From Galdieria sulphuraria (Eukaryota > Rhodophyta > Bangiophyceae > Galdieriales > Galdieriaceae), in assembly GCF_000341285.1 (NCBI RefSeq), contig NW_005178474.1, positions 62,001 to 126,000 on the forward strand: a stretch of DNA of 64,000 bases, given 5' to 3'. The notes under the pieces were generated by a model. The model searched no databases and was not told the origin of the DNA. It saw only the letters and a program-made list of their open reading frames with translations. The position numbers and the translations under genes were made by a program. This document shows positions 3,105 through 60,357 of the stretch, piece by piece. Position 1 is the stretch's first letter. Each line of letters begins with the position of its first letter.

Positions 3105-4205
3105 TTAGGAAATATTGCTTTCTGTTGAAGACTCTGAAACGGTTTGAGGAATTTCACTCTCAACTGTATTCTTCGACAAAATAGCCATTCCTGAACGCTT
3201 CACAGCTAATACTCCTTGACCTCTATCTAAACTGGTCCTCAATAGACAAGCTTTACAAATGTTCTGACTGGAAATACTTCCACAACGAATACATTGTTGA
3301 CCAACTCTCGTTTTGGAGTCTTCCAACGAAATACAGGATAATGAATATAAGATATCAGATATTGAATGAGGACGAATCCTTTCCAAACTCTTTAGATATT
3401 CCCTCGCATGACCTCGATAAGCAAAAGGTGCATAAATACATTCCGTTGCAAAATACTTTAGTTTCTTAAAGTAAGCATACATTACTATTTCCTTTTCATA
3501 TACTCTTTTCAAAGGCTTTACTCGACGAATCTTCTTCGAATCGCTATCGATACTCATGCGATAATTAGCGTTCTCTTCCATAACACTTCTCGAAAATCTT
3601 GCATGGTCTCCTCTCAAAAGGTTGAGCAATATTGTTTCCGCTATATCATCCGCATTATGTCCAGTTGCAAGAACATTAGCTTGAATCTTTTCGGTTCCTT
3701 TATCGAGAGCTTGTCTACGAAAAACACCACAAAAAGTGCAATTGCTCTTTCTTCCAATTTGGGAAACAACTTGATCCATAGTCCAATTATACAGTTCACT
3801 ATAGGATAGAGTATACAAAGGGAGATTGTAATCATCTCTATTTTGTTCAACCGTTCTCAGAGAGTCGTCTCTATAGCCTTGTATTCCTTCATCTATGGAA
3901 AGCAACCACAAGTCCCAATTGTAATAATACCTTTCATTCAGGAGCTTCAGGACATAAGCCAAAACAGTCGAATCTTATATTCCTTTAGTATATCAAAAGG
4001 TCCTTATTCTTCTCTATTTACCTTTACCACCAGAAGCACCTATGGCTATCCGTTCGCCAGGTTGCAACAAACACTCTTCAACAATAGTACGATGAACTGT
4101 ATCTTCAAAATATTCAAAAAAGCAACAACGACACAAGTATTTATCTTCTCTACCAACTAAAATATTTGCAAAAGACTTTCCACAATGACTACAAAGGCGT
4201 TTCAT
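3105..4205 (-). CDS. NCS6: Cytosolic tRNA 2-thiolation enzyme NCS6/CTU1
   Basis: Two exons (4205-4022, 3973-3105) with a 48-nt intron encode 350 residues, the usual CTU1 length. The intron splits the PP-loop: the first exon ends SGGK plus one base, and splicing restores SGGKDST, which confirms the junction. An N-terminal zinc motif (CSHC...CRCC) and a C-terminal one (CIRCG...CKAC) flank the ATP-pyrophosphatase core, with the central CTFCG cysteines and the ATGHNADD signature. With Ncs2/CTU2 the enzyme adds sulfur to the wobble uridine of tRNA-Lys, -Gln and -Glu using Urm1 as sulfur carrier. A Trm9-like gene for the companion mcm5 modification lies 7 kb away. Assignment is secure. Confidence 0.95.
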
Positions 4206-6110: not shown

Positions 6111-8144
6111 CATATCATTTGGAGATGATAGTGTCGAATATTTATAATGATGTATCCAAAAATGAATGTTGGAGAGCCAAGGAGATGTTGACAAGAGAGA
6201 ATTTTCATACCATTGGAAGAGACGAAAAGCTATACTCTTTTCTGTATCGTCTTCTTGGGACTGAGTACTTAAAAAGTAAGTCGTTTTGTTTGAACAACTC
6301 TTTGGAAGAATAAAACGAGGCCACATAAAAACTATCGTCCATGCAAGAATTGTCCTTTGAGATACACTCAATTGCTCTATTTGCAATAAACTAACGAGTC
6401 GTTCAATAAGAATCCATAAATGACGACTCGAAACTTCATTTTGCGACAAGGAGAAATGCAACAATAGTAACCAAGTTCTACCCACAACTGCCAAAAGGAC
6501 TAGAGAGGATTGCCACAAGGGAAAGAAATCTACACTCAGTCTTAACCATTTCCATATATGTTCTCCAATGACCTTTTCATAACATTCTTTTGGGGGTTGT
6601 TCAAAAACATAAATACTTAATAAATAACCAACCATAAGTTGTATCCAATCATTCACTTCATTCACATTGGATGAAAATATCAACTTGTTTTGTTGATATT
6701 TCCTTTCCAATGCTAATAGTAACCAATCTAGTCTATGAGGAGAGTGATATATGTTGAGAGGAGTTTGGGTATTATGATAACCTATTTTAGAAATGAATGA
6801 AAATGGTAACCATCGGAGAATAAATAAAACAGTTTCCGATAGTAACTCATCATGCCTTAAAGAATGGTTTCGATTCATTTCTTGAATCCAGTCTCCATTA
6901 CAAGTTTCTCTCATCCAAAGGAATAAACTTTCCATCTTATTTCTATACGAAGTGGTTGAATGAGGTGAAGAATACATGAAAAACAAGTCCAAATAAAGTG
7001 ATAAGATTGCTTCTGAATAATGTTGCAGCTTGTAGATTTGTACAACACTCATCAAAATGCCTTGAAACCTTTCCCACATTGTACAACGACGAGCCGAACA
7101 TTCCGAACAACCAAAGAATCTCAACAACATATATTGAATATAAAGTGGCGATAACCGATTCAAATAATTCGAGCTATTACTCGAAAATTGTTTTGTAATA
7201 TCCATTTTCGATAACAACACTTCCAACATGACTATGAAACTTCCAACCATTCTCCAACCATGGCTATTCAAATATACGCAATCCAACAAATACGAACACA
7301 CCGAGTCCACTAAATGTGAAATCGAGTTGCCTTGAAGTACATATTCAACACTTTCGACCAACACATTGATCAAATCCCATTCACAAATACTCCTTTGAAT
7401 ACTTTCATAAAGATGACTTTGAATATCTTGCATGTTCACTTCATTAGGCTTGGTACAAGGTTGAAAATTTTTCTTGCAAGTCTCAAATATAGTATTCAAG
7501 ACATGAAGAATATCCTCATCCTTACAAGTCGCTACTGACAACTTGTTATAATGAAGGACTGCCTGGTAACTACAACTTGACCAAAAGTAAAACTGCTCTA
7601 AATGACATTGACCCCAGTTATAAACAGCATTGTATGTTCTAGAAAGAGAATAATCCTGCGAAACAACTGGTTTTGTTGTTTCGCTTGTACCACAACTGTG
7701 TCTTTTATCAAGGAGTGAGGAGGATAAACCCACAAGAGAACTATTACTGTCATTGTCAAGTTGTTTGGTGTCCAATGAAGAACATTGCTGACTATTTATG
7801 TCCATCAATACGTCTAAAACATGTGACAATATACTAGATAACAATGTTACCATTTGTAGCTGACTTTCATCCGAAATATTAGTCAACACAGAACCATACA
7901 ACTGAAGGAAAGCTTCTGCTTCTTCAACAACTTGATACACCTCAAGTTGTGTCCCACTAGTAAAAGGCGCCATTTCATGAATACAAATAGATACTCGTAG
8001 TTTGTCAAGTTTTACTTTTAAAGTTTCTAGTTTCTCCAATATAGACTTTTTATGTATTGAGTGGTACAGTTCCATACTCATCCCATAATATTGGTTTGTG
8101 GCCATTCCGTTGCTTTGTTTGGTTCCTTCTGAGTGAACTGTCAT
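6105..8144 (-). CDS. Unrecognised 679-residue leucine-rich helical protein
   Basis: A single uninterrupted frame of 679 codons. I do not recognise a family. The sequence is mostly alpha-helical, rich in Leu, Ser, Trp and Tyr, with long amphipathic stretches reminiscent of HEAT/ARM-type solenoids, but no repeat consensus could be fixed. No signal peptide is obvious and no motif points to catalysis. The ATG chosen (MTVHSEG) is the first and lies 87 bp from the divergent ubiquilin start, so the two probably share a promoter. Its stop codon is interlocked with that of ENP2: the bases TCATAA carry TAA on the plus strand and TGA on the minus strand. Length and open frame make it a real gene; the function is unknown. 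Confidence 0.75.
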   Translation of the reverse strand: MTVHSEGTKQSNGMATNQYYGMSMELYHSIHKKSILEKLETLKVKLDKLRVSICIHEMAPFTSGTQLEVYQVVEEAEAFLQLYGSVLTNISDESQLQMVTLLSSILSHVLDVLMDINSQQCSSLDTKQLDNDSNSSLVGLSSSLLDKRHSCGTSETTKPVVSQDYSLSRTYNAVYNWGQCHLEQFYFWSSCSYQAVLHYNKLSVATCKDEDILHVLNTIFETCKKNFQPCTKPNEVNMQDIQSHLYESIQRSICEWDLINVLVESVEYVLQGNSISHLVDSVCSYLLDCVYLNSHGWRMVGSFIVMLEVLLSKMDITKQFSSNSSNYLNRLSPLYIQYMLLRFFGCSECSARRCTMWERFQGILMSVVQIYKLQHYSEAILSLYLDLFFMYSSPHSTTSYRNKMESLFLWMRETCNGDWIQEMNRNHSLRHDELLSETVLFILRWLPFSFISKIGYHNTQTPLNIYHSPHRLDWLLLALERKYQQNKLIFSSNVNEVNDWIQLMVGYLLSIYVFEQPPKECYEKVIGEHIWKWLRLSVDFFPLWQSSLVLLAVVGRTWLLLLHFSLSQNEVSSRHLWILIERLVSLLQIEQLSVSQRTILAWTIVFMWPRFILPKSCSNKTTYFLSTQSQEDDTEKSIAFRLFQWYENSLLSTSPWLSNIHFWIHHYKYSTLSSPNDML

Positions 8145-23108: not shown

Positions 23109-24683
23109 ATGGCGTCATTCACCAAAGAATCTTCTTCTGACGATGGGAACAGGGAAAAGGCTTACAGTGAATCACCTCCCTCCAGTGGCGCTTTTACACC
23201 TGGAGTTACCTGTAAAGTAGGTGTTTCTTCTTCTGTGGCAGTTGATAAGCACCAGCAGGTCCCCTCTCAGCAGATTCCACTCCCATTTGGTGTTTCCAAC
23301 TTGGAAAGTGATTTTTATTCTGAAAATGTAACTTGTGTCGGTGAAAACAAGAAAAATATCCAGGACAATAAGGCGCCCGTATATCCCAGTTCCTTCGATG
23401 CCGCCACAAATAATCTGGATGCTTCCATAGTTCTCACAAAACAGGCGTCAGGTGATTTCACATTATCCAACACTGAGTCGAATGTTACGACAAACTCTGT
23501 CAAAGGTATAGATGCCACTGAAGGCAACTTGAACACAACACAAAATGCCAGTATTCAAAGTGAACTTCGAGACGAGAAGAATGTGGATAGAGGACCTCTA
23601 CTCACAAAGGAACAGTTTGACGACTTGGTTCGTAGATGTTCATTTTTTGCTATATATAGTTCTGCCAAAGTTCCCAAAGTACGGTATAAGCGTCTGGAAG
23701 AATCTGTGCTTACAATTTGTCGTTTATTCTACACTCGAAGGCATAAGATCGATTGGTTTGTGGAGGAGTTGAACCGAAGTGAAGGTCATGATTGGACGGT
23801 TTCTCAGTGGGTGGCTTTCCTTCATGGCTCCAATTTTAAGATGGTGAAATTGAAAGCATATAAAGGAATTGGAAACTTTTGCTATTATAATGGAAGCGTA
23901 TTTACAACTGCTGGTATATTGGGAAGCTGTAAGTGCTTGAGGGAGGTTCGTACAGGCTTTGGTGGTAAACAGGGCAATCGCGATGTTCTTGCTGATGAAG
24001 AACTCAAAGCGTTATATGAGAGCGAAGAGATTATCAAAGTAGATCCGAACGCGTTTCCAGATGATTCGGAGATTGCACCTCTGAAACCTGTGAGACCTCG
24101 TATGACTTTGAAGAGGCAATCAGATAGCATTGCGCAAACTTATGGCCTGGAGAATAGTTCTTTAAGGAATCCCAAGATTAGTTATTCTTTAACAATGGGA
24201 GAAGTTGTCGGTGATGGTCCTTCAAAGACAGGTAGCTCACCTATGGAGACGGATTCTGAGGTTGAAGGTGCAGAATTGGAAGCTTCTCAACAAGAAAACG
24301 ATATGGAAAGCACAGAAAGCAGTGAAAGTGATACAAAGGATAGTACTGAAAAGGACTCTGCTCGTCGTGCTTCACGTAAGAGAATCCGAGAAAATTCAAT
24401 GAGTCAAAGTCTGAACTTATTGGATACAAACTCTACACAAGATTCACTTATTCATGACCATGAGAAGTTTAGTTTCAGTTCTGTGAGTCCGAAGGAAACT
24501 ACGCAGTCAAGATTGGATTCTAGAAACCAAGAAGCTTCAGATGAATATATAGATTCCATTCTGACAAGATTTTCTGTACAAATGCAAGACAAGTTGGATC
24601 GTGCTATTCAGGTGTTAGAGACCAAAATGGACCTTATCACCCAAAGAGTATCAAAACTAGAAGAAGAAAGGTTAGGAAGATAA
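23109..24683 (+). CDS. Unrecognised 524-residue protein with C-terminal coiled coil
   Basis: Intronless. Residues 1-165 are Ser/Thr/Asn-rich and probably disordered. A conserved-looking folded block of about 130 residues starts at LTKEQFDDLVRRC and includes TICRLFYTRRHKIDWFVEEL, a Trp-rich patch (HDWTVSQWVAFLHG) and a Cys-containing stretch ILGSCKCLREVR. It is followed by an acidic Ser/Glu-rich region with basic RRASRKRIRE, then a C-terminal coiled coil (LDRAIQVLETKMDLITQRV). I do not recognise the family. The mix of folded block, acidic tail, nuclear-localisation-like basic patch and oligomerising coil suits a nuclear regulatory protein, but that is only inference. Confidence 0.7.
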   Translation: MASFTKESSSDDGNREKAYSESPPSSGAFTPGVTCKVGVSSSVAVDKHQQVPSQQIPLPFGVSNLESDFYSENVTCVGENKKNIQDNKAPVYPSSFDAATNNLDASIVLTKQASGDFTLSNTESNVTTNSVKGIDATEGNLNTTQNASIQSELRDEKNVDRGPLLTKEQFDDLVRRCSFFAIYSSAKVPKVRYKRLEESVLTICRLFYTRRHKIDWFVEELNRSEGHDWTVSQWVAFLHGSNFKMVKLKAYKGIGNFCYYNGSVFTTAGILGSCKCLREVRTGFGGKQGNRDVLADEELKALYESEEIIKVDPNAFPDDSEIAPLKPVRPRMTLKRQSDSIAQTYGLENSSLRNPKISYSLTMGEVVGDGPSKTGSSPMETDSEVEGAELEASQQENDMESTESSESDTKDSTEKDSARRASRKRIRENSMSQSLNLLDTNSTQDSLIHDHEKFSFSSVSPKETTQSRLDSRNQEASDEYIDSILTRFSVQMQDKLDRAIQVLETKMDLITQRVSKLEEERLGR

Positions 24684-29284: not shown

Positions 29285-29511
29285 CTCGCAACTGTTTCGT
29301 GCTATTCTATGGTTTCAATAACCAAATGAAAAAGATGAATGATAAATTCCAAAAAAAATAGGAAAACCTTGTTAGTTTTTTAACAACATGATAACAGACC
29401 TTTATTAAAGCTTCATTATTTCAAAACATCAAAACGTCTCTTCGACCAAATAACATCCGATCGTCGCTTCTTTCAGATTTTGTATCCATTTGCCATATTG
29501 ATTATCCAAAC

Positions 29512-32500
29512 ATGGCACAAGTTTGGGAAGAAACGGTATATATACCTTCTTATGAAGTTGGAAAACCGGAAAAGAATCCCTTATTTCTAGAGAAGAGAGT
29601 TTATCAAGGCAGCTCAGGAAAGGTATATCCATATCCTGTTATTGAAAAGATTTACGATCAAAAGCTCGAAAAACCTTACAGAGTTGTATTCCTTGAGAAT
29701 GAATACATTCAAGTCCAGTTAATGCCCGATATTGGAGGCAGAGTGTATCGATACTTGGATAAAACAAACGGCTATGATGCAGTTTATTACAATCGAGTGA
29801 TCAAACCAGCTCTTGTTGGTCTAGCAGGTCCTTGGATATCCGGAGGAATCGAGTTCAACTGGCCGCAACATCATCGACCAAATACTTTTGGAAAAGTGGA
29901 ATATTATTATACAAGAGATACAGAAATTGGAGTTTGCACCTGTTGGATGACTGAAGTGGATAGAATGTACGGAACCAAATGTTTAGTTGCCTTTTCAATA
30001 TATCCAGGAAAGTCCTTTTTAGAGATTAAGGTCATTTTATATAATCGAACAGCGATTCCTCAAACTTTTTTATGGTGGGCTAATCCAGCAGTACATGTTC
30101 ATGATCAAACCCAGTCTATCTTTCCACCTGATGTTCGTGCAGTGTTCGATCATGGAAAGAGAGATTTGTCTAGGTTTCCTATTGCTACAGGAGTATATTA
30201 CAAGGTAGACTATTCTGAAGGAGTGGATATTTCATGGTACAAAAATGTACCTGTTCCTACATCTTATATGGCATACTATTCAAAATATGACTTTCTTGGA
30301 GGTTATGACCATCATAAGCACGCAGGTATTCTTCATATTGCAGATCACCACATATCGCCAGGAAAGAAGCAATGGACTTGGGGTTGTGGCAATTTTGGAG
30401 ATGTTTGGCATCAACAGCTTACCGATGAAGATGGTCCTTATGTGGAGTTGATGGCTGGTGTATATACCGATAATCAACCCGACTTTACTTGGTTGAAGCC
30501 TCAAGAGCTGAAGACTTTTACTCAGTATTTCTTGCCTTATAAGCAAGTTGGTGTAGTAAAGAATGCCAATATTGACTTTGCCATTGGTTTGGATAGGAAA
30601 GAAGATCAGCTTCATATGTGCATATATGCTTCTTCCAATTTTGAACAGTTGAAGCTTCTTTTGACGGATACTAGAAATGATTCTATTATCTATGAAAACC
30701 TTATAGATGTCTCACCTCTGAAGCCTTTTACACATTCCATTACTTGTCATCATGAGAAACCGCATTATATAAAGATGGCACTTTATGGAGAGAAAGACAA
30801 CTCCATCGAATTAATATCCTATCAGCCAGAATATCCTCATATAGAAAAGTTTCCTGAACCTGCAAAACCAATTGAAGCCCCCGAGCTATTACCAAATACA
30901 GAAAGTCTATTTTTAGCTGGTTTGCATTTGGAACAGTATCGTCATGCAACTTATAGACCAGAAGATTATTATTTAGAAGGATTGAAAAGAGATAAGGACG
31001 ACATTCGACTAAATACTGCTTATAGTGTGCTTCTATTAAGACATGGAGACCATATAAATGCAAAAAAATATTTCGAAAGAGCAATAGTGACGTGTACTCG
31101 ACACAATCCTAACCCTTCTGATTGTTCTGCTTATTATTATCTAGGACTATGTCTGAAATATGAAAAGCGCTGGGATGAAGCTTTCGATTCATTTTACAAA
31201 GCTATTTGGGATTCTCATTATCATAGTTTAGGCTATTATCAACTTGCATGTCTTGCATTTCGTATGAAAGCTTATTCCAAGTCTTTGGAGTTTATAGAAA
31301 CCTCACTGAAGAAGGATGGTTCCAACTTGCTTGCTCTCAATGCCCGTATTACCATATTGCGCAAGTTGGGACATTTTAAAAAGGCATCTGAATACTGTTA
31401 TCAAGTTTTAAAAGACAATCCTTTAGAAGCAGCTGCCTTGTTGGAAAATTCTTTGCTTGAAGCAATTGATAAAGAGAAAGGAAACCATAATAGCGTTATC
31501 CATGATCAAAAAATGACTTGGATTCGGGTATTGGATGAAGAGCCGCATCAATATCTTGCTTTGACTGAAGAATATTGGGAACTTGGTGATTATGACACTG
31601 CAGTATTGATTCTGGAGCAATTGATCACTCAGTGTACAACCAAAGGAATACAAATACCTTTTATTGTATACTATGCCATCTCCTTTCTTCAACAATATAT
31701 GAATCATTCCAGTTCATTTCCAAAATCAAATTATTTTGAAAGGGCTTCCAAAGCAGATTTACAGCTGTACTTTTCGACTTCTTTATTCGAAATGTTTATT
31801 TTGCAAGATGCCTGTAACCAAACTTTGGATTATAAGCCTCATTATATGCTTGGCAATCTTCTTTATGATAAGCGACGGTATCAAGATGCCATTTCTTGTT
31901 GGGAAAGATGCATAGAGTTGGAGCCATCATTTCCTACTGCTTATCGCAATCTCTCTTTGGCATATTTTAATAAGCTTAAAGATACTAAGAAATCAAAAGA
32001 ATATATGGAAAGAGCATTTTCATTGGACACTTCAGATGCTCGAGTATTTTACGAATTGGACAAATTATATCGCATTCTCGGTGTTCATCCCAAACAGCGT
32101 TTACAGCAGTTAGAACTATATATGTCACTAGTTCAGCAACGAGATGATCTTATTGTGGAACATGTAACCTTACTCAATAGGGATGGTGCTTATGACAAAG
32201 CATTATCCATATTATTGAATCATCGTTTTCATCCTTGGGAAGGAGGTGAAGGAAAAGTTATTGCACAATATACTTTTTGTTGTATTGAATTGGCAAAGAA
32301 ACATTTGATTTGCAATGAGACAGATGGAGCAATTTCCTATTTGATAAGGGCCATGGAATATCCTTCGAATCTTGGAGAAGGCAAGTTACAAGGAACTCGT
32401 GAAAGTGCTATCTTTTATCTGTTGGGCTGTTGTTATGAACGAAAGAATGATAAGTCGTTAGCAAGCCAATATTATGAAAAGGCATCTCAAGGCTCACTTC

Positions 32501-32886
32501 ATCTTGAACCGGTCATGTTTTACAATGACCAACCACCAGAGTTGATATTCTATCAGGGACTCGCATTTCGAAGATTGCAAGACGAAAAGAATGCCAGAAG
32601 ATGCTTTCATACATTGAAGGATTACGGTGAAGTTCAGTTGTTTAAGGATTTGAAGATTGACTATTTTGCAGTATCGCTTCCCAATATGTTGGTATTTGAA
32701 GAAGACCTAAATAGAATGAACCAAATGCAGAGTCGTTTTCTACTGGCGCTGGGATATATAGGTTTGTATGAGTATGAAAGTGCTAAACAACAACTAGAGC
32801 TAGTATTAGAATTAGATCCTTGTCACTTGGGTGCCTTTATTCATTTGGAAATGTTGAAGAAGCCTTATGTCGATGTGTTACTTTAA
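29512..32886 (+). CDS. DUF5107 protein with TPR array
   Basis: Intronless, 1124 residues. Residues 1 to about 400 form the DUF5107 type of galactose-mutarotase-like beta-sandwich (DIGGRVYRYLDKTNG, GLAGPWISGGIEFNWPQHH core, LWWANPAVHVHD, GNFGDVWHQQLTDEDGPYVELMAG), with conserved Trp, His and Asp residues typical of a carbohydrate site. Residues from about 480 to the end are helical TPR repeats, several with clear consensus (YRNLSLAYFNKLKDTKKSKEYMERAF core, HYMLGNLLYDKRRYQDAISCWERCIELEP core). From general knowledge this fusion is frequent in bacteria and rare in eukaryotes. A carbohydrate-active role is inferred. The divergent neighbour is a GH31 glycosidase. The absence of introns and of any signal peptide suggests a cytosolic protein of possibly transferred origin. 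Confidence 0.85.
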   Translation: MAQVWEETVYIPSYEVGKPEKNPLFLEKRVYQGSSGKVYPYPVIEKIYDQKLEKPYRVVFLENEYIQVQLMPDIGGRVYRYLDKTNGYDAVYYNRVIKPALVGLAGPWISGGIEFNWPQHHRPNTFGKVEYYYTRDTEIGVCTCWMTEVDRMYGTKCLVAFSIYPGKSFLEIKVILYNRTAIPQTFLWWANPAVHVHDQTQSIFPPDVRAVFDHGKRDLSRFPIATGVYYKVDYSEGVDISWYKNVPVPTSYMAYYSKYDFLGGYDHHKHAGILHIADHHISPGKKQWTWGCGNFGDVWHQQLTDEDGPYVELMAGVYTDNQPDFTWLKPQELKTFTQYFLPYKQVGVVKNANIDFAIGLDRKEDQLHMCIYASSNFEQLKLLLTDTRNDSIIYENLIDVSPLKPFTHSITCHHEKPHYIKMALYGEKDNSIELISYQPEYPHIEKFPEPAKPIEAPELLPNTESLFLAGLHLEQYRHATYRPEDYYLEGLKRDKDDIRLNTAYSVLLLRHGDHINAKKYFERAIVTCTRHNPNPSDCSAYYYLGLCLKYEKRWDEAFDSFYKAIWDSHYHSLGYYQLACLAFRMKAYSKSLEFIETSLKKDGSNLLALNARITILRKLGHFKKASEYCYQVLKDNPLEAAALLENSLLEAIDKEKGNHNSVIHDQKMTWIRVLDEEPHQYLALTEEYWELGDYDTAVLILEQLITQCTTKGIQIPFIVYYAISFLQQYMNHSSSFPKSNYFERASKADLQLYFSTSLFEMFILQDACNQTLDYKPHYMLGNLLYDKRRYQDAISCWERCIELEPSFPTAYRNLSLAYFNKLKDTKKSKEYMERAFSLDTSDARVFYELDKLYRILGVHPKQRLQQLELYMSLVQQRDDLIVEHVTLLNRDGAYDKALSILLNHRFHPWEGGEGKVIAQYTFCCIELAKKHLICNETDGAISYLIRAMEYPSNLGEGKLQGTRESAIFYLLGCCYERKNDKSLASQYYEKASQGSLHLEPVMFYNDQPPELIFYQGLAFRRLQDEKNARRCFHTLKDYGEVQLFKDLKIDYFAVSLPNMLVFEEDLNRMNQMQSRFLLALGYIGLYEYESAKQQLELVLELDPCHLGAFIHLEMLKKPYVDVLL

Positions 32887-34814: not shown

Positions 34815-35945
34815 ATGGCAACTTGTAGTATCTCGTGGAATCGAAAGCGACGAGTTTTGGTTTTAGGTTCTGGTGTAATTGGACTTACCACTGCTATTCG
34901 ATTAGCTGAAAGTGGTCATAAAGTTCTGATATGGTCCAAGGATAGGTCACCCAATCTTACTTCGGATGGCTCCGGTGGTTATTGGATGCCGTTTCATATC
35001 GAACCTGAGGAATGGGTCAACGAGTGGAGTATAGAAGCTTTAAGAGTATTTAGAAATCAGTTGAAATATTATGGAAAAGAATGTGGTATTCATATATTTC
35101 CTGGTAAAGTACTTCACGAGCATCTTCCAAAGCAAGTTCCCTATTGGACCCATTATGTTAACATGAGAACAGTGACTAGTCCAGATCAAGTTCCCAAATA
35201 CTTTGAAGGTGCTTGGAAGTTTGAATCACCTATCGTTAATATGGATGTTTACATGCCTTGGTTGGAAAAGCAAGCAAGAAGTCTTGGAGTTGAGATATTA
35301 TCTCCCATAACCGTGGGTCCTCGCCTAATCGATGCTGCTTTGGCTGCTTATCGACATTTTGCTGCAGAAGTATTGGTCAATTGTACTGGTTTAGGTTCTC
35401 GAGAGTTGTGTAATGATAAAAGTGTTATTCCTGGTAGAGGTGCTACTATTCGAGTTCAGTCCAATATGAAAAAGCAACGAGAGTTTGTTACAACTAGTTC
35501 TGGTCCTTTTTCTTCCAATGAGTTGCCGACATATATTCTACCACGTGGAGATGATTTGTTTACTTTAGGAGGAACTTATTTTGAAAATGATTGGAATACT
35601 CGAGTGGGTCCTGAAGAAGCAATGGATATTCAAAGAAGATGTAGTTTATTAGTACCAGAAATAAAGGATGCACCAGTTGTTTGTAGTTGGGCTGGCTTAA
35701 GACCAGTTCGACCGCAAGTTCGACTTGAATATGAAATTCTAGACGAAGATAAGGTTCCTCTTATTATTCATAATTATGGACATGGAGGTAAGTCAATTGT
35801 TCTTGAAGACTATTATTCGTAATAATAATAATTATTCATAGGAGCTGGAGTTACAGTTAGTTGGGGTTGTGCCAAGCATGTAGTTACTTTATTGGAAGAC
35901 TTGACTGCAGTCAATGAACGAAGAATGCTTAGCAGTAGACTTTAG
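34815..35945 (+). CDS. DAO: D-amino-acid oxidase, peroxisomal
   Basis: Exons 34815-35787 and 35842-35945 over a 54-nt intron encode 358 residues. The dinucleotide fold is VLVLGSGVIGLTTAIRLAESG; SDGSGGYWMPF, NCTGLGSREL, GGTYFENDW, CSWAGLRPVRPQVRLEYE (core) and the spliced HNYGHGGAGVTVSWGCA follow the DAO/DASPO family, including the FAD-binding and active-site segments. It oxidises D-amino acids to 2-oxo acids, ammonia and H2O2. The last three residues, Ser-Arg-Leu, form a PTS1 signal, placing it in peroxisomes. The upstream open frame to 34608 is not homologous, so MATCSIS is taken as start. D-amino-acid versus D-aspartate preference cannot be decided. Confidence 0.95.
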
Positions 35946-35956
35946 TATTTCAGAAA

Positions 35957-37846
35957 ATGGAAAATAAATTCATTTTTTTTAGTTTCATGAGTTGGGAAAA
36001 GAACAATGTGTTCCTTCCGTTATTAACGGAAACTGAAAACAACGAGTCGTCCATAATATCTGAAGAACCTATAAGTACTGATTACTCTTGCAATACTGAA
36101 TGGATAACAGATAACCAAACATGGTTGACTTCACTAGAAGACTTGCACTTGTTTCAAACGGATGAACAGACTTGTATCGTGTGTTTAAAGAATAGTCAAC
36201 GTCTGGGAATAAAAGGAAAAGGTTATATGAAGATTCTTGAAGGAAATGTCTTTATACACGGAAATATGTTTGAACCAGATGATAGTTGGATTTACCTTGG
36301 CGCTTTGGCTTGGGATCCTTTACTACTCTTGGATTCTGATGATAAAGAAGAACTCTACAAGGTTGAAGGTATTCAACCTCAACCTTCAAAAGATAATTCT
36401 TGGGAAAAAATGTCGTGTTTGGAAGATAGATTGAGAGGGGATCCTCATTTGTCACATTTGTTATCTCTTGGCATAGTTGAATCCGTTCAAACTTGTTTGC
36501 CTGTCAAGGCTATCATTGCTTTTCGCAGTTATAAATATTCTAAAGGTGACTACGTTGAAAAATTTGTGCAGTCACAGGACAACAACAACTTTGAAAAGCT
36601 GATTGATGAATTATATCTCTTGAAGAGTAGAGATATTCAACGACTTGCTCACTTTCAAGTTTGGAATGGTTGGAAAGAATTGCTGATGCATGTAAACTCG
36701 AACTGTGCTTCTATGAATGAGAATCTTCGAATATTTCTGGTTTGTGGTGATCGCGGTACTGGCAAGTCAACATTCACGAGGACTTTATGTAATCAGTTAC
36801 TCAAGTTCCATAGCTGTGTTTGGTTAATGGATACTGACTTGGGACAGAGTGAGATGATGCCTCCTGGAATGGTTTCGTTGATGGAAATCAAAAATTCCTT
36901 TCAAAGTACTCCACTTACGCATGAGACATATGACTCCACTATGTCTTATTTCATTGGGGTGGTAACTCCGAGAGAAAGGCTTCAAATATATAAAGACGCA
37001 ATTCAAAGATTGGCTTCAGAAATGTATTTAGGAGCATGTCGTACTGGAGCTCCGTGTGTTATTAACACACATGGATGGACGTCAGGATTAGGTTTAACAA
37101 TATTACAATTTTTGTTTCACTTGTTACAGCCAACTGATGTGATTCAACTTGAAATGACGGATAATACTTCAAAATTATCGGAAGAATGGTTTGATTCTGG
37201 TCGTTTCAAGCATAATGTTCAAAAATGGAAGTTGACACGTGATCTTTCGACTAGCAGTAGTGGTAACGGTGGTGATGGTATTAGACTAAGTTCTTCAGAA
37301 AAAAGACATCTTCAGTTGTTTGCTTATTTTTGTCCAGAATCAGTATTTTTCCTTTCACCTCCTTCCTCAGCTGTTTCTCAAACAGTCGCCTATTATATTG
37401 GCAATCATTTTGCGCAACTTCCCGTTTATCAAGTCTTGGTTAGAGACATGCAGGTCTATTCTATCGATGGTGAAGTGAATATGGAGCATATGGAAGCTTT
37501 ATTGCTTGGTGTTGTAGTTGGCCTTTGTTGGAATGTGGAAAAAACCGATTCTTTAAAAGAATGTGAACCTTTGCGATGTTATGGATTAGGTCTTGTCAAA
37601 GCCATAGAACGAGACAGAACCATATTGTATATTTCAACTCCTGTTTGTGAAAGTAAGCTCAAACAAGTAAATACTTTGGTTGTTAGTCGTTTTATTCAAT
37701 TATCTCCGGCAGCTTATCTTTGGACGGGACCAACAGAACCTCACTTTGTCTCATGGGATGGTCTCTCTTATGCATCTTCTGAAATGAGAAGTCGCAATAA
37801 TATTCCTCGAAAGCGTTTGTTAAATAAGAAAGATAACGAAAAATGA
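35957..37846 (+). CDS. GRC3: Polynucleotide 5'-hydroxyl kinase GRC3/NOL9
   Basis: Intronless, up to 629 residues; a second ATG at 35987 (MSWEKN) is possible. The Walker A loop is CGDRGTGKSTFTRTL, followed by VWLMDTDLGQSEMMPPG, a switch-like YFIGVVTPRERLQIY, the lid helix region and VINTHGWTSGLGL, as in GRC3/NOL9 and CLP1. The C-terminal domain contains YGLGLVKAIERDRTILYISTP (core). The family phosphorylates the 5' end of ITS2 after Las1 cleavage during 25S/28S rRNA maturation, and is nucleolar. An N-terminal domain of about 230 residues fits NOL9 better than CLP1. The start is only 11 bp after the DAO stop; the stop is 3 nt from that of the converging WD40 gene. Confidence 0.9.
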   Translation: MENKFIFFSFMSWEKNNVFLPLLTETENNESSIISEEPISTDYSCNTEWITDNQTWLTSLEDLHLFQTDEQTCIVCLKNSQRLGIKGKGYMKILEGNVFIHGNMFEPDDSWIYLGALAWDPLLLLDSDDKEELYKVEGIQPQPSKDNSWEKMSCLEDRLRGDPHLSHLLSLGIVESVQTCLPVKAIIAFRSYKYSKGDYVEKFVQSQDNNNFEKLIDELYLLKSRDIQRLAHFQVWNGWKELLMHVNSNCASMNENLRIFLVCGDRGTGKSTFTRTLCNQLLKFHSCVWLMDTDLGQSEMMPPGMVSLMEIKNSFQSTPLTHETYDSTMSYFIGVVTPRERLQIYKDAIQRLASEMYLGACRTGAPCVINTHGWTSGLGLTILQFLFHLLQPTDVIQLEMTDNTSKLSEEWFDSGRFKHNVQKWKLTRDLSTSSSGNGGDGIRLSSSEKRHLQLFAYFCPESVFFLSPPSSAVSQTVAYYIGNHFAQLPVYQVLVRDMQVYSIDGEVNMEHMEALLLGVVVGLCWNVEKTDSLKECEPLRCYGLGLVKAIERDRTILYISTPVCESKLKQVNTLVVSRFIQLSPAAYLWTGPTEPHFVSWDGLSYASSEMRSRNNIPRKRLLNKKDNEK

Positions 37847-49690: not shown

Positions 49691-50905
49691 TAAATTGGAG
49701 ATTGCCAAAAACTAGTTTTTATCCAATAAAGCTGAATGGCAACTTATTCCACAAAATTCCTTACTTTTGAGTAAATGATAACAAGACTAGGTTATCAAGT
49801 TGTCTAAACACAAAGCTTGTATACTATTGTGGAAAGCAACTCGATACATATAAGCTATTTCCAAAATCCTTCTAAAGGAATGGGTAAATATATTTGTAAT
49901 AAGAGTGAAACAACTCATGATCGCAGGATATCGTAAAAGTACTAGTCAGAAGGCAAATTACCACGTTAAATAAAATAGATAATCAATAGATGAGACACAA
50001 AAAACATAATATGACAAGTCAGGAAAGCGAGTTCCGATATCTTATATGGCTTGAATAAATCACCTGTCCTTACGTTGATTGCAACTCCCGTTTCAAATTC
50101 TGTAACGCAAAAAACCGACCATAGGGTGTCGATATTCCTTGTTTGCAAAAAGGACAAAAATTATCACCTTTTCCAATAACAACAGGAAATCTTTACATGA
50201 ACTGAAGTGGCAAGGAACTAGGTGAGCTACTATTTCCTTATAGAAAATTTCACAAGAAAGTTGCTCAAGCGAAGGGAAAACTGCGAATAGGCTAACCAAG
50301 AAAAGACGCGGGCATCCCAATCCTCTCTCTGGATCCTCTAGTTCTTGTAAGAGAAGACCGAAAAAGTCTTTGAACATAAAGTTAGGAGAATAACTTCACC
50401 CTCGTTAATCCTGTGCCCAGTTCCATAGAATGGCGAGATAACATAGAACTTCTTCAAGTATCGTGAAAACAAAAAGGACAGACTCCAAGGAATCCGCTTT
50501 AGTAATAGTAGTTCACGTTTAAGCATAGTCTATATTAGAACCTTGACATCATGGCGCTTTCCTCAGTTTATCTAGAAATCATAATATACAACATACATTT
50601 TGTGTGAATATTTTTTTCAAATGTCCTACTGAAAGATTATGTCTTCATCTCTTCCATTTGTAACAATACACAATCTTTACACAGGAAAAGAATGGCACAA
50701 TGATAAGAAGATACATTTTCCGTTTCAAAGCCAATATATTGATATAAATTGAAAACTCAAATAGATATCTCTAATAATCTTACTTTGTATGGTAGTGAAA
50801 AGAAACATTTTTTTTGCTTTTAAAGTTCTCAAGTGTTTCTTGCATAATCTTACGATAGAAACGACAACGAAAACAAAAAAACTAACCTTGGTGAAAGCGA
50901 CAACA
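49691..50905. other. 1.2-kb interval with only fragmentary frames
   Basis: Between GH35 and the tRNA gene three minus-strand frames of 62-94 codons occur (50526-49966). A short minus-strand frame around 50070-50185 contains FCPFCKQG with one Cys-x2-Cys and ends at a potential GTAAGG donor, so exons of a small gene may be present, but I could not assemble a convincing model. Confidence 0.35.
50875..50881 (-). terminator. RNA polymerase III terminator of tRNA-Gly
   Basis: A run of seven T on the minus strand, about 25 nt after the mature 3' end of the tRNA gene, as expected for Pol III termination. Confidence 0.6.
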
Positions 50906-50996
50906 TACGGTTGCCGGGAATCGAACCCGGGTCACGTCCGTGGCAGGGACGCATTCTACCATGATCCAGTATTGATTCCTTCTAGACCACAACCGT
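50906..50996 (-). tRNA. trnG-GCC: tRNA-Gly(GCC) with D-loop intron
   Basis: The minus strand folds into a complete cloverleaf once 20 nt in the D-loop are removed. Acceptor stem ACGGTTG pairs with CAACCGT, followed by discriminator A. The D-arm GTCTAG...TGGTAGAAT equals the plant tRNA-Gly form; the anticodon arm is CGTCC-CTGCCAC-GGACG with anticodon GCC; the T-arm is CCGGG-TTCGATT-CCCGG. The mature RNA would be 71 nt, normal for tRNA-Gly. There is no intron at the canonical 37/38 position. The first base pair is A-T rather than G-C, which is unusual. Internal A and B boxes are present, the A box being split by the intron. A T7 terminator follows. Confidence 0.93.
50962..50981 (-). other. 20-nt intron in the D-loop of tRNA-Gly
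   Basis: Inserted after the AG of TCTAG and before TGGTAG. Without it the D-loop is the standard AGTGGT; with it the D-loop would have about 26 nt. A four-base helix GGUC/GAUC, using exon bases before the 5' border and intron bases near the 3' border, with 3-nt bulges UAG and AUG on opposite sides, can be drawn, similar to a bulge-helix-bulge splice site. Borders could shift by one or two bases. Confidence 0.85.
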
Positions 50997-51155
50997 TGTC
51001 CAGCCTTCTCCAATAGACTACTTTCAAACAAAATGATTTTCCTATATAATAAATTAAATAGCTTGTCATAAATTGCTTTGGCGGCTTCAAGTAACTCTCC
51101 TTTCAGAAATCAACTTTGTGGAGCTAGGATTCTTTGAATAGATACACATAGCCAT

Positions 51156-52676: not shown

Positions 52677-55600
52677 TTATGGTGCATCCCAACGATATCC
52701 AAAACGACTCAATAGGCCTTTAGCTAAACTGGTAGGAGCGGTCAACGTATTCGATATTCTATTGGATGAATTATCTCCGTGTTCAACGAGATTGTTGTTT
52801 GAACCACTTGTCAGGTCTTCTTGTTCCTTTCTATTATTAAAGTTGACAGTCTTTTTAAGCTCTTCCAATCGAGACTCCAACGCTGCAATCATTCCTTGTC
52901 TTCTATAAAAGTCATTTTCATTTCTTAACAACAAGTCGACGCCTTCCAAAAGAGCTTCAAAGTGTACAGATCCATATTGTATCACATGTGAAACCATCCA
53001 TTCCATTTGTAACTTTTTGATTTTCTTTGTCAACATTTCTTCATCCTCATCCAACCATTGAACAACCCACTGATCATCCTCATCAAATACCTGATTAATA
53101 GCTTCCAACTCATTCTCTTGAGTATTCATTACAGATTCTTTCCTGATTTCTTCTTCTTGTACAACATTTCTATACTGTGCAGCCCACTTTTTCAATAACA
53201 AAGTACATTCCTCATGATTCAAGGAAGCATTGGCTTGCATCATCCATTTTCGAACAGAATCTTCAGCTAATCTTCTTTGTAACCTCCAGAAGAAGAATGA
53301 ACGAGCCTCTTTCCAAGGAACAATCTTTCGAATGGCCTTCTTTGCCAACATCCTACCAGGAGTGTCGTGTAAATCAGCAAATGTCAAAGCAATTCGTCGA
53401 TAAATAGGCATCAATTCTGATTCCCTTACACGAATGGCTGCTAATATTTGTTGTCTTTTATCATTTCCTCCTATTTGAGATAATCGTGGAGAAGTAGCAT
53501 TATTCGTTGTTGAAGAAGATTCTTCGTGACTCAATGGGAGTTGCAATTCCTGATCTAAGGCTTGCAATTGTGGGTCCAATCTGTGCATCGTTTTCAACAA
53601 TTCCCTTTTGCGATATTTTACATCAATAGTTCCTTCAGGTTCTAAGACACCACCTCGTGAAGTTTCATCTGCATACATTTCAATATGTTGTGAATTAATC
53701 TTTGTATCCAGAACAACCCAAGCTCCACCTCTCAATTCTCCATATGGTAATATATAAACAAATACGGGTTGTGAGTAAGTTCTCAAAGCATCCACTATCA
53801 TGCTTCCATATTTCAATATTTCATCATACATGTCACGCATACCGCCACTAAAACCTCTCCAATTGGCTAAAATAAATAAAGGAAGTCCTTCTCTATTCAT
53901 ATCTCTAATGGCTTGAGCCGTCTTAAAAGCAGAGTCTGGATACCAAACTTGACCCGCTTGTATAATCACTTTCTCAGTTGTTTCTGGAGAAGCAGGATCA
54001 GCTGGATATACTTTCTCCATCGTTCTTGTTTCTGGAACAATAACACCCACAGGAATTCCACCTAAACGTGCTCTACCACATATAACAGTTTTGGCCCAAC
54101 CAGACATTGCTTCCATCCAACTTCCACGATCAAAAAAGCCACCAATAAAACAAGTCTTTGAAGTTATTGTATTGGTACTCCATGAAGACATTCCACTAAC
54201 AGACTCAAATTCCACTTCGTCAGGAGAACCAGAATGCAAAGACTCCATTCCTGCAATCAGATATCTCGGATCATAAGGTGACTTGGATGGTTGGAAAGAT
54301 ATCTCTCTATGAACAGGATCCATGGGTTCAATAATAGGTAACTTGTCATATCTTTTTTGAGGCACAAAACTAAGCCATTCCAAAATATTATCCACACCTG
54401 CCAAGTCATCTTTCACTACTCGTTGAGAAACTCCGTTTTTGAACATCACTCGAATACCTCCCAATTGTTCATTACTTACATAAACATCATGACCCAAAAC
54501 TTTGTTCAAAGCTGAAAATCCAGTAAGTATAATAGGAGCAGCATTCTCTTTCTGAATAACTCGCTCTCCTAATCGCACCAAATATGCACCAATTCCAACA
54601 CTACGAGCAGTTACATAAGTTATCGTAAAAGTTTGTTCATATGCTGCACTCGTTTCACCAGCAATCCAACCTGAACCAACCAAATTCTCTACTCCTAATC
54701 CATCTTCTGAACCTATTATATCTTTGATCATAAACCTTTTACTATCATTCCAATCCACAATAAGGTCGTTATCTTCTGCAATTACTTGAACACTAGAACC
54801 AATGTTCTTCAAATCTTCTTCACTAACATAAAAATGACGGAAACCTTTGGAAGGATCTCCTTCATCTACCCAATCTACCTTGAAACATCGACGTACTTCT
54901 TCTGCCAGACCGATTCGTGCTCCACTATTGGCTGCAATATAAATTCTAGGAATACCTTCTTGACTAGCTAAATGACTAGCAGCTGCAAATAATCTATCTT
55001 CTTCAATACTAAGTGAACCACTCAGATGTGTTATATCACTACCAATAACTATAACATCTCTTCCACCGGGATATTCAGGAGTTCTTAGAATAGCTCTCCA
55101 GGCCACCATTCCAATACTATTCTGTCCCGGTTCTCTATGAACAGCCTTTAGAGTTTCATCTTCTTCCAATATTAACTCTGTGAATTCGGCAACTCGGGAA
55201 GGAACTTTTTGTCTCTTGAAGCCTTCCAATCGTCGTTCTTGACTATATTTTCTCCATCTTTCCTCCAATGCTTTGGTAAATAAATGACGGAAATCATAAA
55301 TATACGTAGTTTCCAAAGTTTGTGCCAAAACACGTTTGCGTTGTAATTTATCCATAACTTGATAAGGTTGGTCAACTGCAGTTCCATGTAGATGGCCAGG
55401 ATTGGAAGGATCTAAAGTCATCAAATGAGTAACGCCTGATAATGGGTCCAACTGCTCTAAATATCCTTCCACTTTCAAAGAATGTCCCGTAGGATTGAAT
55501 AGAATAAAACGTAAAGGCCAAGCAACCGAAGATTTGTGACTTAATGAATAGGAACGAGCTCTCGAGGCTTTAGCACCATTTGCAGAATGACTAGCATTGC

Positions 55601-58600
55601 TATTAAGGAAATTGGAATTGCCACCATGTAAAGTATTACGAAACACTTGAACACGGACTTCAACTACAAATACTCGAAGTTTGAAGCATCGAGCTGCATA
55701 GCGAAGAAACATGCGACGACAAATGGCTTCCACTTCATCGGAATCGATGGAAACCTAATACAAAAGAAGAATGTAATTAGATATTCAATGAATATGTAAA
55801 AAAGTGTACACTTACTGGTGGTAGTACACATAAAAAGATGTGATTAAATTCCGTATATCTGAAACGTCTATCACAACGAGCCATTTCTAAGGCATCCAAA
55901 GACTCTGCAAAGCTTCTTTCCGCTTCAGGAATAGAAATGGCCACTTCATTAGGTAACAATAGAGCATCTGCATTCCTAATGAAAGAACGTACAAAGAAGC
56001 GAGTATCCATATCCTTATTTTCTGAAAAGTCCAATTTCGATGATCTCTTATCCTGAGCATAAAATACGTGAATAGAATGACTAGGATATGGATATCTCGT
56101 AATTTGGAAATTCATCATACGATGAAGTTCCAACTGAAATGCCATTGGAGGATCAATATGTCTATAAATGAGATCCTCAGAATAGTCTGATGAAGAGCGA
56201 AATGTATAGTATTGAGGAAAAGTGTCTTCATTCTCGGACAAGAAAACAATAAATGTCACCAACTTGATACCAGCTTTAATCATTCTTTCCTTTCTTTGTG
56301 GTGAAGAATGTAATAAATCCTTTAAAGAAAGAGCAAATGGATCAATCGAAGCATTGCTATTATCGAAATGCTGTTGGTCGTTATTGGAAGATTGTTCCAC
56401 CTCTGAAGATGTTTGAGATAATACATCACGTTTTTTGGGTGATGAAACCAAAGTATCTAGCCAAGGAACACAAAGGGATAATATGTGAACTTGTTGCTCT
56501 TCTTCCTTAGATACTTGATTAAACTTTTGATAATTATCGATGACCATATCGATACGATCAACCAAATCTCCAAAGGAAGGAAATATAGCAAACATGCCAA
56601 ACCGAAAAGGAATTTCTTCGACTTTGCTATCCAATCTCGTAAGATTATCTGCTGAATCATAAGAAGAAATGGCAGCAGCTCGAACTGATCGACTGGAGGA
56701 ACTATTATCTCCTTGATGAAAGGAAGAGACCCAAGCGCTTCCTGGAGGAAGTAAACGAAATTGCCAAAATGCTGATAAGTAGTCATTCTCTTGCGGTTCA
56801 AGAATGGTAAGATTGGAGACTTGATATGCTCTATACGCTCGATGTATATGTAATTCCACAGCAGTTTTCAATAAAGAATAATCATTACAAGTCTTCGATT
56901 TTCGAAACAAGGCAATAATAAATGGAAGTAAAATATCCAAATGAGAATCCTGACGATGAAGAACATCTTGTATTGCTTCGTCTCGACTATCGTTTACGTC
57001 TACGAGTTGTTCTAATAAGGCCAACAACTTGGATTTGCGTTCTTCTAAGCTAGGCCTTCGAGCTCTTGCAAGTAACAGACGTGCTCTCAAGGCAACATCT
57101 GCAAATGGAGGTTTCGAAAAGGTACTCAATTCTATAAGACACTGTTCCAAACCCTTTAAATTACAAAGTGCAGACTCCCAAGGTACCAAAAAGTCTAAAA
57201 ACCCAAGTATTATTTTGTTCTTCACAGGTAATTTCATATGAGATATTGCTGCATCTACAACATTCGAAAGATCATCTTTATACGACTCTCTCATCTCAAA
57301 TAAAACATCTTCAGCTCGCTTATTCCTTGAAAAAGGTTTCTCAGTTTCAATATATTTCTGTAGCAGTTCCGAAATTTCTTTCAACGCAAACCAAGTCATT
57401 CCATATTCAAAACGACTCAATACTTCCGTAAGTGGAATGACCTTTTGAAGAAATTCGTCCCTTTCCGAGGTTCTCAAACTACTTCGATGTTGGTCCAACA
57501 ACTGAATCATTTGTTTCACTTTATCCGAAACTCGGTCATCGATACTCATTTCAGAAGGAATTGAGGGGTTTGTGTTTTGTTTCTTTGTCAACTTTTCTGC
57601 TAGTAACTGAGGAGCATTTTCAGTTCTAGATTCCATTTTGGGTATTGAAGAGTACTTTACAGTGTCGTTCCAGAGAGACTCCAGAATGTTGCATAGATTA
57701 TCCTATTCCACAAAAAACAAATTTGGATATATTATTCAAAGGAGATAATGGACTCATTACTTACATATATATGTTTGGGAAGATAAGACACCAATTCTGA
57801 TACTACTTCATGAATCTCTCCAAATGCTACTTGAGGATTGAATAACAACTCAAGAAACTCTTCCATACAATTCTCGTTTGCATCATAACCATCCATTATC
57901 ATTTGTATCGAACTCTTGCAAACTCTCAATTTTTGATAAGGTTTATTACTTGGTGCACTCGGAGGTCTCATCGCTGGAAGTTGACCTTGAAAAGGAATGG
58001 GTCTTTTTACTTCAGACTCATCATCTAGTTGTAATGTTGCAAGAATCTCTCCAATTTCTACAGATGCACCATCTGATTTGAGTAAATGAACTCGACCACC
58101 TGCTGTAGCATATACTGTAATGTACATCTTCATTGCTTCCAATTCTGCAATAGGCGCTTTCACCGAAACTTTGTCATTTTCTTTCACCAAGTAGCGAACC
58201 AATTTTCCATTCACATGTGACTTGATTTGCGTAGGATCATTTGCTTTAGGAAACACACATGTCTTTCCATCTAAAGTAAGTCTCGTACAAAGTGCTTCCT
58301 CTCTCAAATAAGAAACATGAGAATGACCATCTACCAATAGTAATCGACCTCCATCTGCAAAGTATCTTACTTCGACATCCACTTGAGAACCATTCAGGCT
58401 CACCTAAGTCATTCAATGTCATTTGATTCAAGTTTTGTGTTAATGACTTACATTGAAGCTAACTGGTCCCTTTCGGGAAACCAAAAAAGAATAGAGATAA
58501 TTCTCATATACCAACTCAATAGGAAACTCGATGAGACTCAAATCCTTTGGAGGTAATTGTCCTCGAACCAAACACGAAATATATTCCGATGAGTGTGCTT

Positions 58601-60357
58601 CCAACATGGCACAAGCTTTACAAACTGCTCCAGCAATTACTGCAAGTTCAGTTGAAGGCTTTTCTGTAATTGCCTTGGATGCTATCAAACCATCCAACCA
58701 TTCTGTAGTAACACGACAAGCTTTAAAGTCTTCAGACTCTAACAACCGAACGATATATTCTGTAGCTGTTCTTATTTCTCCACGAATACTTAGTTCCTTC
58801 AATGCTAATACCATATTACGCCTAGACATTTCTCTATCTTCACCCCAAGCAAATAGATGACCAAACTGAGAATCCGAATATTCATGAACACCTCCACTAG
58901 TACCAACCGAAAAGTAACCCCAAACATTAGGAGTATTCCGAAATGCCAATTCTTGAATGGCTCCTGAAGTAGGTTGAAAGCCTTCATCTGGATTCTCCGC
59001 AGTGATTCTCACAGCTATAACATGACCATGTGGACTCTTTCTTCTTTCCGGTGCAAAAATGTTCTCTGCATTATTATGATTACTGTTGTTGTCGTTGTTG
59101 TTATAAACAAAGGGCTTCCATTGATGAAATGTTCTTAAACTAGGAATATGAGTCAATGGAATTCCCATGGCAATCTGCAATTGTATTGCTGGAAGATTGA
59201 GATTCGTTATCCATTCCGTCACTGGATGTTCTACTTGAAGTCGTGGATTGAGTTCCAAAAAATAAAATTCTCCTTCTTCACAAGTTCCATGATATAAATA
59301 TTCTACAGTCCCAGCACCACAATAACCAACCTCTTTAGCAAGTCGAACAGCTGATTGTTCCATTTCTGACCAAAGACTAGCAACCGCTGCTATAACGGGA
59401 CCCTCTTCAACCATTTTCTGATGTCTTCTTTGAACGGAACAATCACGTCCATACAATGCAACTGCATTTCCATATTCATCTGCAACAACTTGAACTTCTA
59501 AATGCTTAGCACTAGAAACTACTTTCATCATAAAAATAGGACTACCAGGAACTTCACCTTTTACTTGACGATAGGCATTGTTGATTTCATCGACATGATG
59601 TGCCATTCGAATACCTTTTCCACCACCGCCTTCTGAAGCTTTCAACATGACTGGATAACCAATTTCATTGGCTACTTGTACTGCTTGAGATTCACTAAAA
59701 ATGCAAGTTTCTCGAAATATCTCTTCAGGAATACCTTGAGAGCGATAATCGACTGTTACTCCAAAACCTGACCAAGGCACTACAGGAACTCCAACCGACT
59801 GTGCTAATAGAGTTGAAGATATCTTATCACCCAAAGCACGCATAGCAGCCGCATTGGGACCTAAAAAAGTTACTCCAACCTGAGATAGACGTTCTGGTAA
59901 TCGTGGATTCTCTGAAGCATGGCCCCAACCAGCCCAAACTGCATCAACTTGAAACCGTTCTGCAATATCCACAATAAGTTCTACATTGGCATAATTAAAA
60001 TTATTAGAACCGCCGGGTACTGGGACCAACTGATCTGCTAGTCTCACGTACTCTGCGTTGGCACGAATGTCTTCAGGTGTTGCCATCGACACAAATTCTA
60101 TCAAACGTTCGTTTCCAAATACTTCATAAAGCCATTTTCTCATAGATCTTATAGCCTTGACAGCTGCGATGCCGTTATTCGCAATCAACACCTAGGTTTA
60201 TTTGTCAAGGTTCAAAGTGAATGGATGGTTACAAGGACACTCAGAAACCAACCTTTCTAATAACCCTCTTTCCATGACATAGTTCTACATATTCTTCTAT
60301 TGTATTTTTTGTTTGAATTGGGTATTCTTCTTGGTTTCGTGTAGTATTGAGTTCCAT
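52677..60357 (-). CDS. ACC1: Multidomain acetyl-CoA carboxylase
   Basis: Five exons (60357-60253, 60191-58452, 58403-57765, 57702-55816, 55754-52677) with introns of 61, 48, 62 and 61 nt encode 2482 residues, slightly longer than typical eukaryotic ACC. Biotin carboxylase: KVLIANNGIAAVKAIRSMR, GWGHASENPRLPE, ASEGGGGKGIRMAHH and NPRLQVEHPVTE. Biotin carrier: ELEAMKMYITVYA with the biotinyl Lys. The long central domain sits in exon 4. Carboxyltransferase: YIAANSGARIGLAEEV, GIGAYLVRLGERVIQ and GGFFDRGSWMEAMSGWAKTV (core). It makes malonyl-CoA. The N-terminus MELNTTRNQEEYP is not a transit peptide, so it is cytosolic, complementing the plastid-encoded multisubunit ACC expected in red algae. An Asn-rich insert (YNNNDNNSNHNN) lies in the carboxylase domain. 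Confidence 0.97.

Follow-up and report, generated by a model that had tools for sequence, protein, structure and literature searches.

A 20-nt D-loop insert, a candidate ectopic intron, in a nuclear tRNA-Gly(GCC) gene of a probable Galdieria-like alga

A tRNA-Gly(GCC) gene on the minus strand of the window (the whole 64,000-nt stretch of DNA that we analysed) is interrupted in its D-loop, between tRNA positions 15 and 16, by 20 nucleotides. We propose that these are a spliced ectopic intron of the kind found in Cyanidioschyzon merolae, in a nuclear gene of a Galdieria-like alga, and we put the probability of this reading at roughly 0.6.

Anatomy of the interrupted gene

ARAGORN located one tRNA gene in the window, 50996-50906 on the minus strand, with the 5' end at 50996 and the 3' end at 50906. 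The gene consists of the following parts.

50982..50996, minus strand: 5' exon (exon 1), tRNA positions 1-15, ACGGTTGTGGTCTAG; placed by the covariance model match from model position 1 and by ARAGORN on the joined sequence
50962..50981, minus strand: 20-nt D-loop insert (15/16), proposed ectopic tRNA intron, AAGGAATCAATACTGGATCA; the sole extra length in the covariance model alignment
50906..50961, minus strand: 3' exon (exon 2); placed by ARAGORN on the joined sequence and by the covariance model alignment

The 5' exon holds the 5' strand of the acceptor, U8, G9, the 5' strand of the D-stem, A14 and G15, and the 3' exon holds the remaining D-loop, the anticodon arm (GCC), the variable loop, the T arm, the 3' strand of the acceptor and A73. 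CCA is not encoded at the 3' end. Without the insert the product is 71 nt long, ACGGTTGTGGTCTAGTGGTAGAATGCGTCCCTGCCACGGACGTGACCCGGGTTCGATTCCCGGCAACCGTA, and ARAGORN named it tRNA-Gly(gcc), folding it with 7 Watson-Crick acceptor pairs, a 7-nt D-loop, an anticodon stem of 5 bp plus one G.U, and a 5-bp T stem. The GCC-anticodon cloverleaf, C2-G71, A73 and the T arm TTCGA were all present (ARAGORN on the joined sequence, covariance model). Both methods also recovered a canonical tRNA once an insert away from 37/38 was removed: the insert is at 15/16, not at the canonical eukaryotic position 37/38, and the anticodon loop has 7 nt. The gene is not permuted, the covariance model aligning both parts in their normal order. 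No second copy of the 20-nt insert was found within the 64-kb window.

A looser scan of genome contigs yielded five tRNA-Gly(GCC)-like loci (L001-L005) as comparators, and we built a covariance model from three intact tRNA-Gly(GCC) genes of this set, leaving the query out. Run against the window, the model gave a single match, 50996-50906, at 67.3 bits (E 2.8e-15). It aligned 71 of 71 positions, with the only insertion in the D-loop, 25 nt in place of 5. A tRNA-Gly gene of this quality lies well outside what chance would give. The original prediction of an otherwise canonical tRNA-Gly(GCC) with a 20-nt insert in the D-loop is thus borne out on both points. Given the 91-nt form in the window, ARAGORN called a tRNA-Thr(ggt); this fold needs unusual loops and its anticodon stem is broken, and we dismissed the call as an artefact that the insert causes. 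That the locus is this other tRNA, or a chance tRNA-like match, is refuted by the broken stem together with the E-value of the Gly(GCC) model and has next to no probability. The generic Rfam tRNA model recovered just the 3' part (50906-50962), scoring it at 29.8 bits where the cut-off is 29; we discarded its alignment, which starts at 50962, since there AUGGUAG was taken as a false acceptor strand. Near the locus, tmRNA and Corona_pk3 matched below their gathering scores, and we regard these hits as chance. In viral and prokaryote collections, neither the search for the interrupted gene nor that for relatives of HMG-CoA synthase, which is encoded next to it, gave anything usable.

The border TCTAG|TGGTAG was set by sequence identity with the intact D-arm of L001, TGGTCTAGTGGTAGAAT, which is identical to the query D-arm minus the insert. 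Borders from stem pairing alone were dropped: by a crude cloverleaf score several nearby deletions were equal or better, and the border therefore rests on identity with the intact tRNA-Gly. Query and L001 have the D-stem mismatch C12 x A23 in common. In the acceptor and anticodon stems the query differs from L001 at many places and the pairing is kept, so that the 71-nt body carries no sign of decay. This matters for the main rival explanation, in which the locus is a recently inactivated tRNA-Gly(GCC) gene, one of several copies in its family, that has a D-loop insertion, is not spliced and is dispensable. The 71 nt have no further defect and every stem is paired, which argues against inactivation, although a young copy would still appear intact.

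L001 itself lies at 6366-6829 of NVWL01000032.1, a contig filed as an Oceanobacter MAG, in a cluster of tRNA-Val(tac), Lys(ctt), Gly(gcc) and Arg(acg). Its tRNA-Gly is eukaryote-like and has no encoded CCA; the contig is probably eukaryotic contamination of the Oceanobacter MAG.

Pairing between exon and insert

The end of the insert is complementary to the end of the 5' exon.

50962..50989, minus strand: 8-bp exon-intron helix, UGGUCUAG (positions 8-15) with CUGGAUCA (insert 13-20); from a constrained fold and shuffles

The helix has six Watson-Crick and two G.U pairs, and when the 91-nt form was folded with the other three stems held, it lay on the acceptor stem. An 8-bp pairing in the 20-nt register occurred in about 0.04% of shuffled inserts and of genomic 20-mers alike; in any register, an 8-bp exon-insert helix is common by chance (14-16%). 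For the bulge-helix-bulge (BHB) we applied the rule that two 3-nt bulges flank a 4-bp helix and that each bulge is cut behind its second base. Under this rule a 20-nt excision calls for GUCU/GGAU as the central helix; this pairing is present inside the 8-bp helix, with the pairs G.U, U-A, C-G and U.G and the bulges AG^A and CA^U. Such pairing arose by chance in 3.1% of shuffled inserts and 2.1% of genomic 20-mers. The outer helix is absent, the inner helix has just 2 bp, and 8-bp helices are frequent when every register is allowed; we therefore regard the motif as a relaxed BHB at best. Two of the four central pairs are G.U. The pairing GGUC/GAUC, which the original prediction drew over the borders, did not hold up: it is the neighbouring register, in which the standard cut would excise 22 nt, not 20, leaving a 5-nt D-loop, AGGUA, without positions 15 and 16.

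These features bear on three alternatives. The weakness of the BHB suits an inactivated copy; against it, the complementarity of the insert falls in the very register that a BHB needs. If the D-loop had been misassembled or misread, an insert known from one sequence would be accounted for, but a 20-nt insert with structured complementarity, single in the window, makes an unlikely error, and we consider such an artefact very improbable. Nearly as improbable is an unspliced tRNA or tRNA-like RNA that functions with the enlarged D-arm hairpin formed by the 8-bp helix. In the constrained 91-nt fold this helix does adjoin the acceptor stem directly; however, it excludes the D-stem and shifts G18/G19, and we know of no cytosolic tRNA-Gly with such an enlarged D-arm.

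Polymerase III signals and the predicted precursor

We identified internal and flanking elements that resemble RNA polymerase III signals.

51043..51048, minus strand: TATATA upstream, -52 to -47 from the mature 5' end
50978..50989, minus strand: A-box-like TGGTCTAGAAGG, by consensus match to TRGYNNARNNGG
50917..50927, minus strand: B box GGTTCGATTCC, intact, by consensus match
50875..50881, minus strand: T7 run, +25 to +31 past the mature 3' end, likely the pol III terminator

Of non-coding places drawn at random from the window, 0.8% had a TATATA in a comparable stretch of 30 nt and 1.8% had T7 within 40 nt. That pol III-like signals flank the gene on both sides speaks against an inactivated copy. 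We rejected a second B-box match, at 23765, which falls within an ORF where no tRNA was detected. The insert had been expected to split the A box, which is not simply so: TGGTCTAG followed by AAGG, the first four bases of the insert, makes TGGTCTAGAAGG and restores a match to the consensus TRGYNNARNNGG. With the first eight bases fixed, NNGG has a chance of about 1/16, and the restoration is therefore suggestive only. Over the window, 1-64000 on both strands, TRGYNNARNNGG matched 25 times against 8.4 expected from shuffles, and 0 of 100 shuffles reached 25; codon use is perhaps the reason.

According to the proposed explanation, RNA polymerase III would start the precursor from the upstream TATA element, assisted by the B box and possibly by the insert-restored A box, and transcription would end at the T7 run. 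In the precursor the last eight bases of the intron would pair with exon positions 8-15, and GUCU/GGAU would act as the central helix of a relaxed BHB. A tRNA splicing endonuclease of the Sen2/Sen34 type would then cut at AG^A and CA^U, and tRNA ligase would join the exons into a standard 71-nt tRNA-Gly, presumably to be charged as such. The joined form would read ...GGTCTAGTGGTAG... with an ACGGTTG/CAACCGT acceptor.

Known ectopic introns and the host genome

The ectopic tRNA introns of C. merolae were reportedly described by Soma et al. in 2007 and 2013. In the literature that we covered, eukaryotic ectopic tRNA introns are documented for C. merolae and for algal nucleomorphs (PMC3978253, PMC9602550, PMC4090602). 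The likeness to C. merolae that had been predicted is upheld: its tRNA-Arg(CCT) has a 27-nt D-arm intron at 14/15 (PMC3978253) and its tRNA-Ile(UAU) a D-arm intron at 12/13 (PMC9602550), so that the present insert, also in the D-arm of what is probably a nuclear algal tRNA gene, lies 1-3 positions from the C. merolae sites. Its 20 nt fall in the 11-69 bp range of C. merolae introns, and its pairing may amount to a relaxed BHB. In addition, C. merolae tRNA genes are described as having a TATA-like element upstream, a T run downstream and A and B boxes that introns often interrupt (PMC3978253), and the gene described here has the same flanking arrangement (-52, +25). Unlike the C. merolae examples, the tRNA here is Gly(GCC), the BHB is weaker, the insert restores the A-box consensus and splicing is predicted from sequence; and the gene, unlike C. 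merolae tRNA-Arg(CCT), is not also permuted.

Two further systems invite comparison. In the nucleomorph of Guillardia theta, excision of ectopic introns was confirmed by RT-PCR (Kawach et al. 2005, reviewed in PMC4090602). Those too are non-canonical inserts in algal tRNA genes, 3-24 nt long and with the D arm included, but in a reduced genome, whereas the present window carries an ordinary nuclear gene set. Archaeal non-canonical introns with a relaxed BHB (hBH, HBh') resemble the insert in a site off 37/38 and possibly in pairing geometry; unlike them, it sits in a eukaryotic gene with pol III-like signals and without encoded CCA, and there is no evidence of transfer.

The window has 36-40% GC per 4 kb and 38% overall, and its eukaryotic genes include Spb1, NOL10, ubiquilin, ATE1, MCM and HMG-CoA synthase as well as homomeric acetyl-CoA carboxylase, RWP-RK, a sugar transporter, GH31 and GH35. 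The tRNA gene is located between those for GH35 and HMG-CoA synthase. The homomeric (eukaryotic multidomain) acetyl-CoA carboxylase gene, at 52677-60191 on the minus strand, has several short introns of the form GTAAGT..TAG, about 48-62 nt long. C. merolae differs in this respect, with 55% GC and 34 introns in its genome, against 38% GC and short spliceosomal introns here. In Galdieria partita the GC content is 37.6% and the 7,832 genes contain 16,347 introns, about two per gene, whereas the genomes of Cyanidium, Cyanidiococcus and Cyanidioschyzon are richer in GC (55-66%) and have introns by the few dozen (PMC13353863). Gene content, GC and short spliceosomal introns appear compatible with a cyanidiophyte, as originally suggested, and would suit a Galdieria-like lineage well, though another compact eukaryote could also fit.

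Other genes in the window were also recorded. A CLP1_P plus NOL9_C protein, a NOL9/Grc3-like RNA 5'-kinase, is encoded at 35939-37846, about 13 kb from the tRNA gene. The minus strand encodes, at 3105-3974, a PP-loop ATPase that has a zinc ribbon and is likely NCS6/CTU1, which acts in tRNA 2-thiolation. An open frame of 1163 aa at 29395-32886 (plus strand) combines DUF5107 with TPR repeats; this combination is familiar from bacteria, and the frame may therefore have been horizontally acquired.

Redundancy weighs most against splicing. A eukaryotic tRNA gene with a short insert in its D or T arm is mostly one of many synonymous copies and is supposed to be a pseudogene (PMC4090602), which is why an inactivated copy is the main rival. 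By default tRNAscan-SE the tRNA genes number 82 in G. sulphuraria and 22-26 in the other unicellular red algae (PMC10496412); these counts together with the pseudogene precedent make redundancy possible and keep our confidence in the intron moderate. Weighing both sides, we regard an inactivated copy as unlikely, though far more probable than the artefact or the enlarged D-arm.

Our literature search, which reached few subscription papers and is therefore weak evidence, returned no report of ectopic tRNA introns in Galdieria. As the example of Thr for Gly illustrates, standard scanners miss or misname such genes, and tRNA counts in genomes that carry them may therefore be too low. Galdieria is the earliest-diverging cyanidiophyte. 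A broader idea, which we advance tentatively and consider doubtful as a whole, is that Galdieria splices nuclear D-loop tRNA introns through a relaxed BHB, that ectopic splicing is ancestral to the Cyanidiophyceae or was repeatedly gained among them and is not a peculiarity of C. merolae, and that the intron was shaped to restore the A box. The gene bears on the age and spread of ectopic tRNA splicing in the Cyanidiophyceae: if its insert is spliced, the eukaryotic splicing endonuclease would have acted off 37/38 near the root of the class, or such splicing would have had more than one origin.
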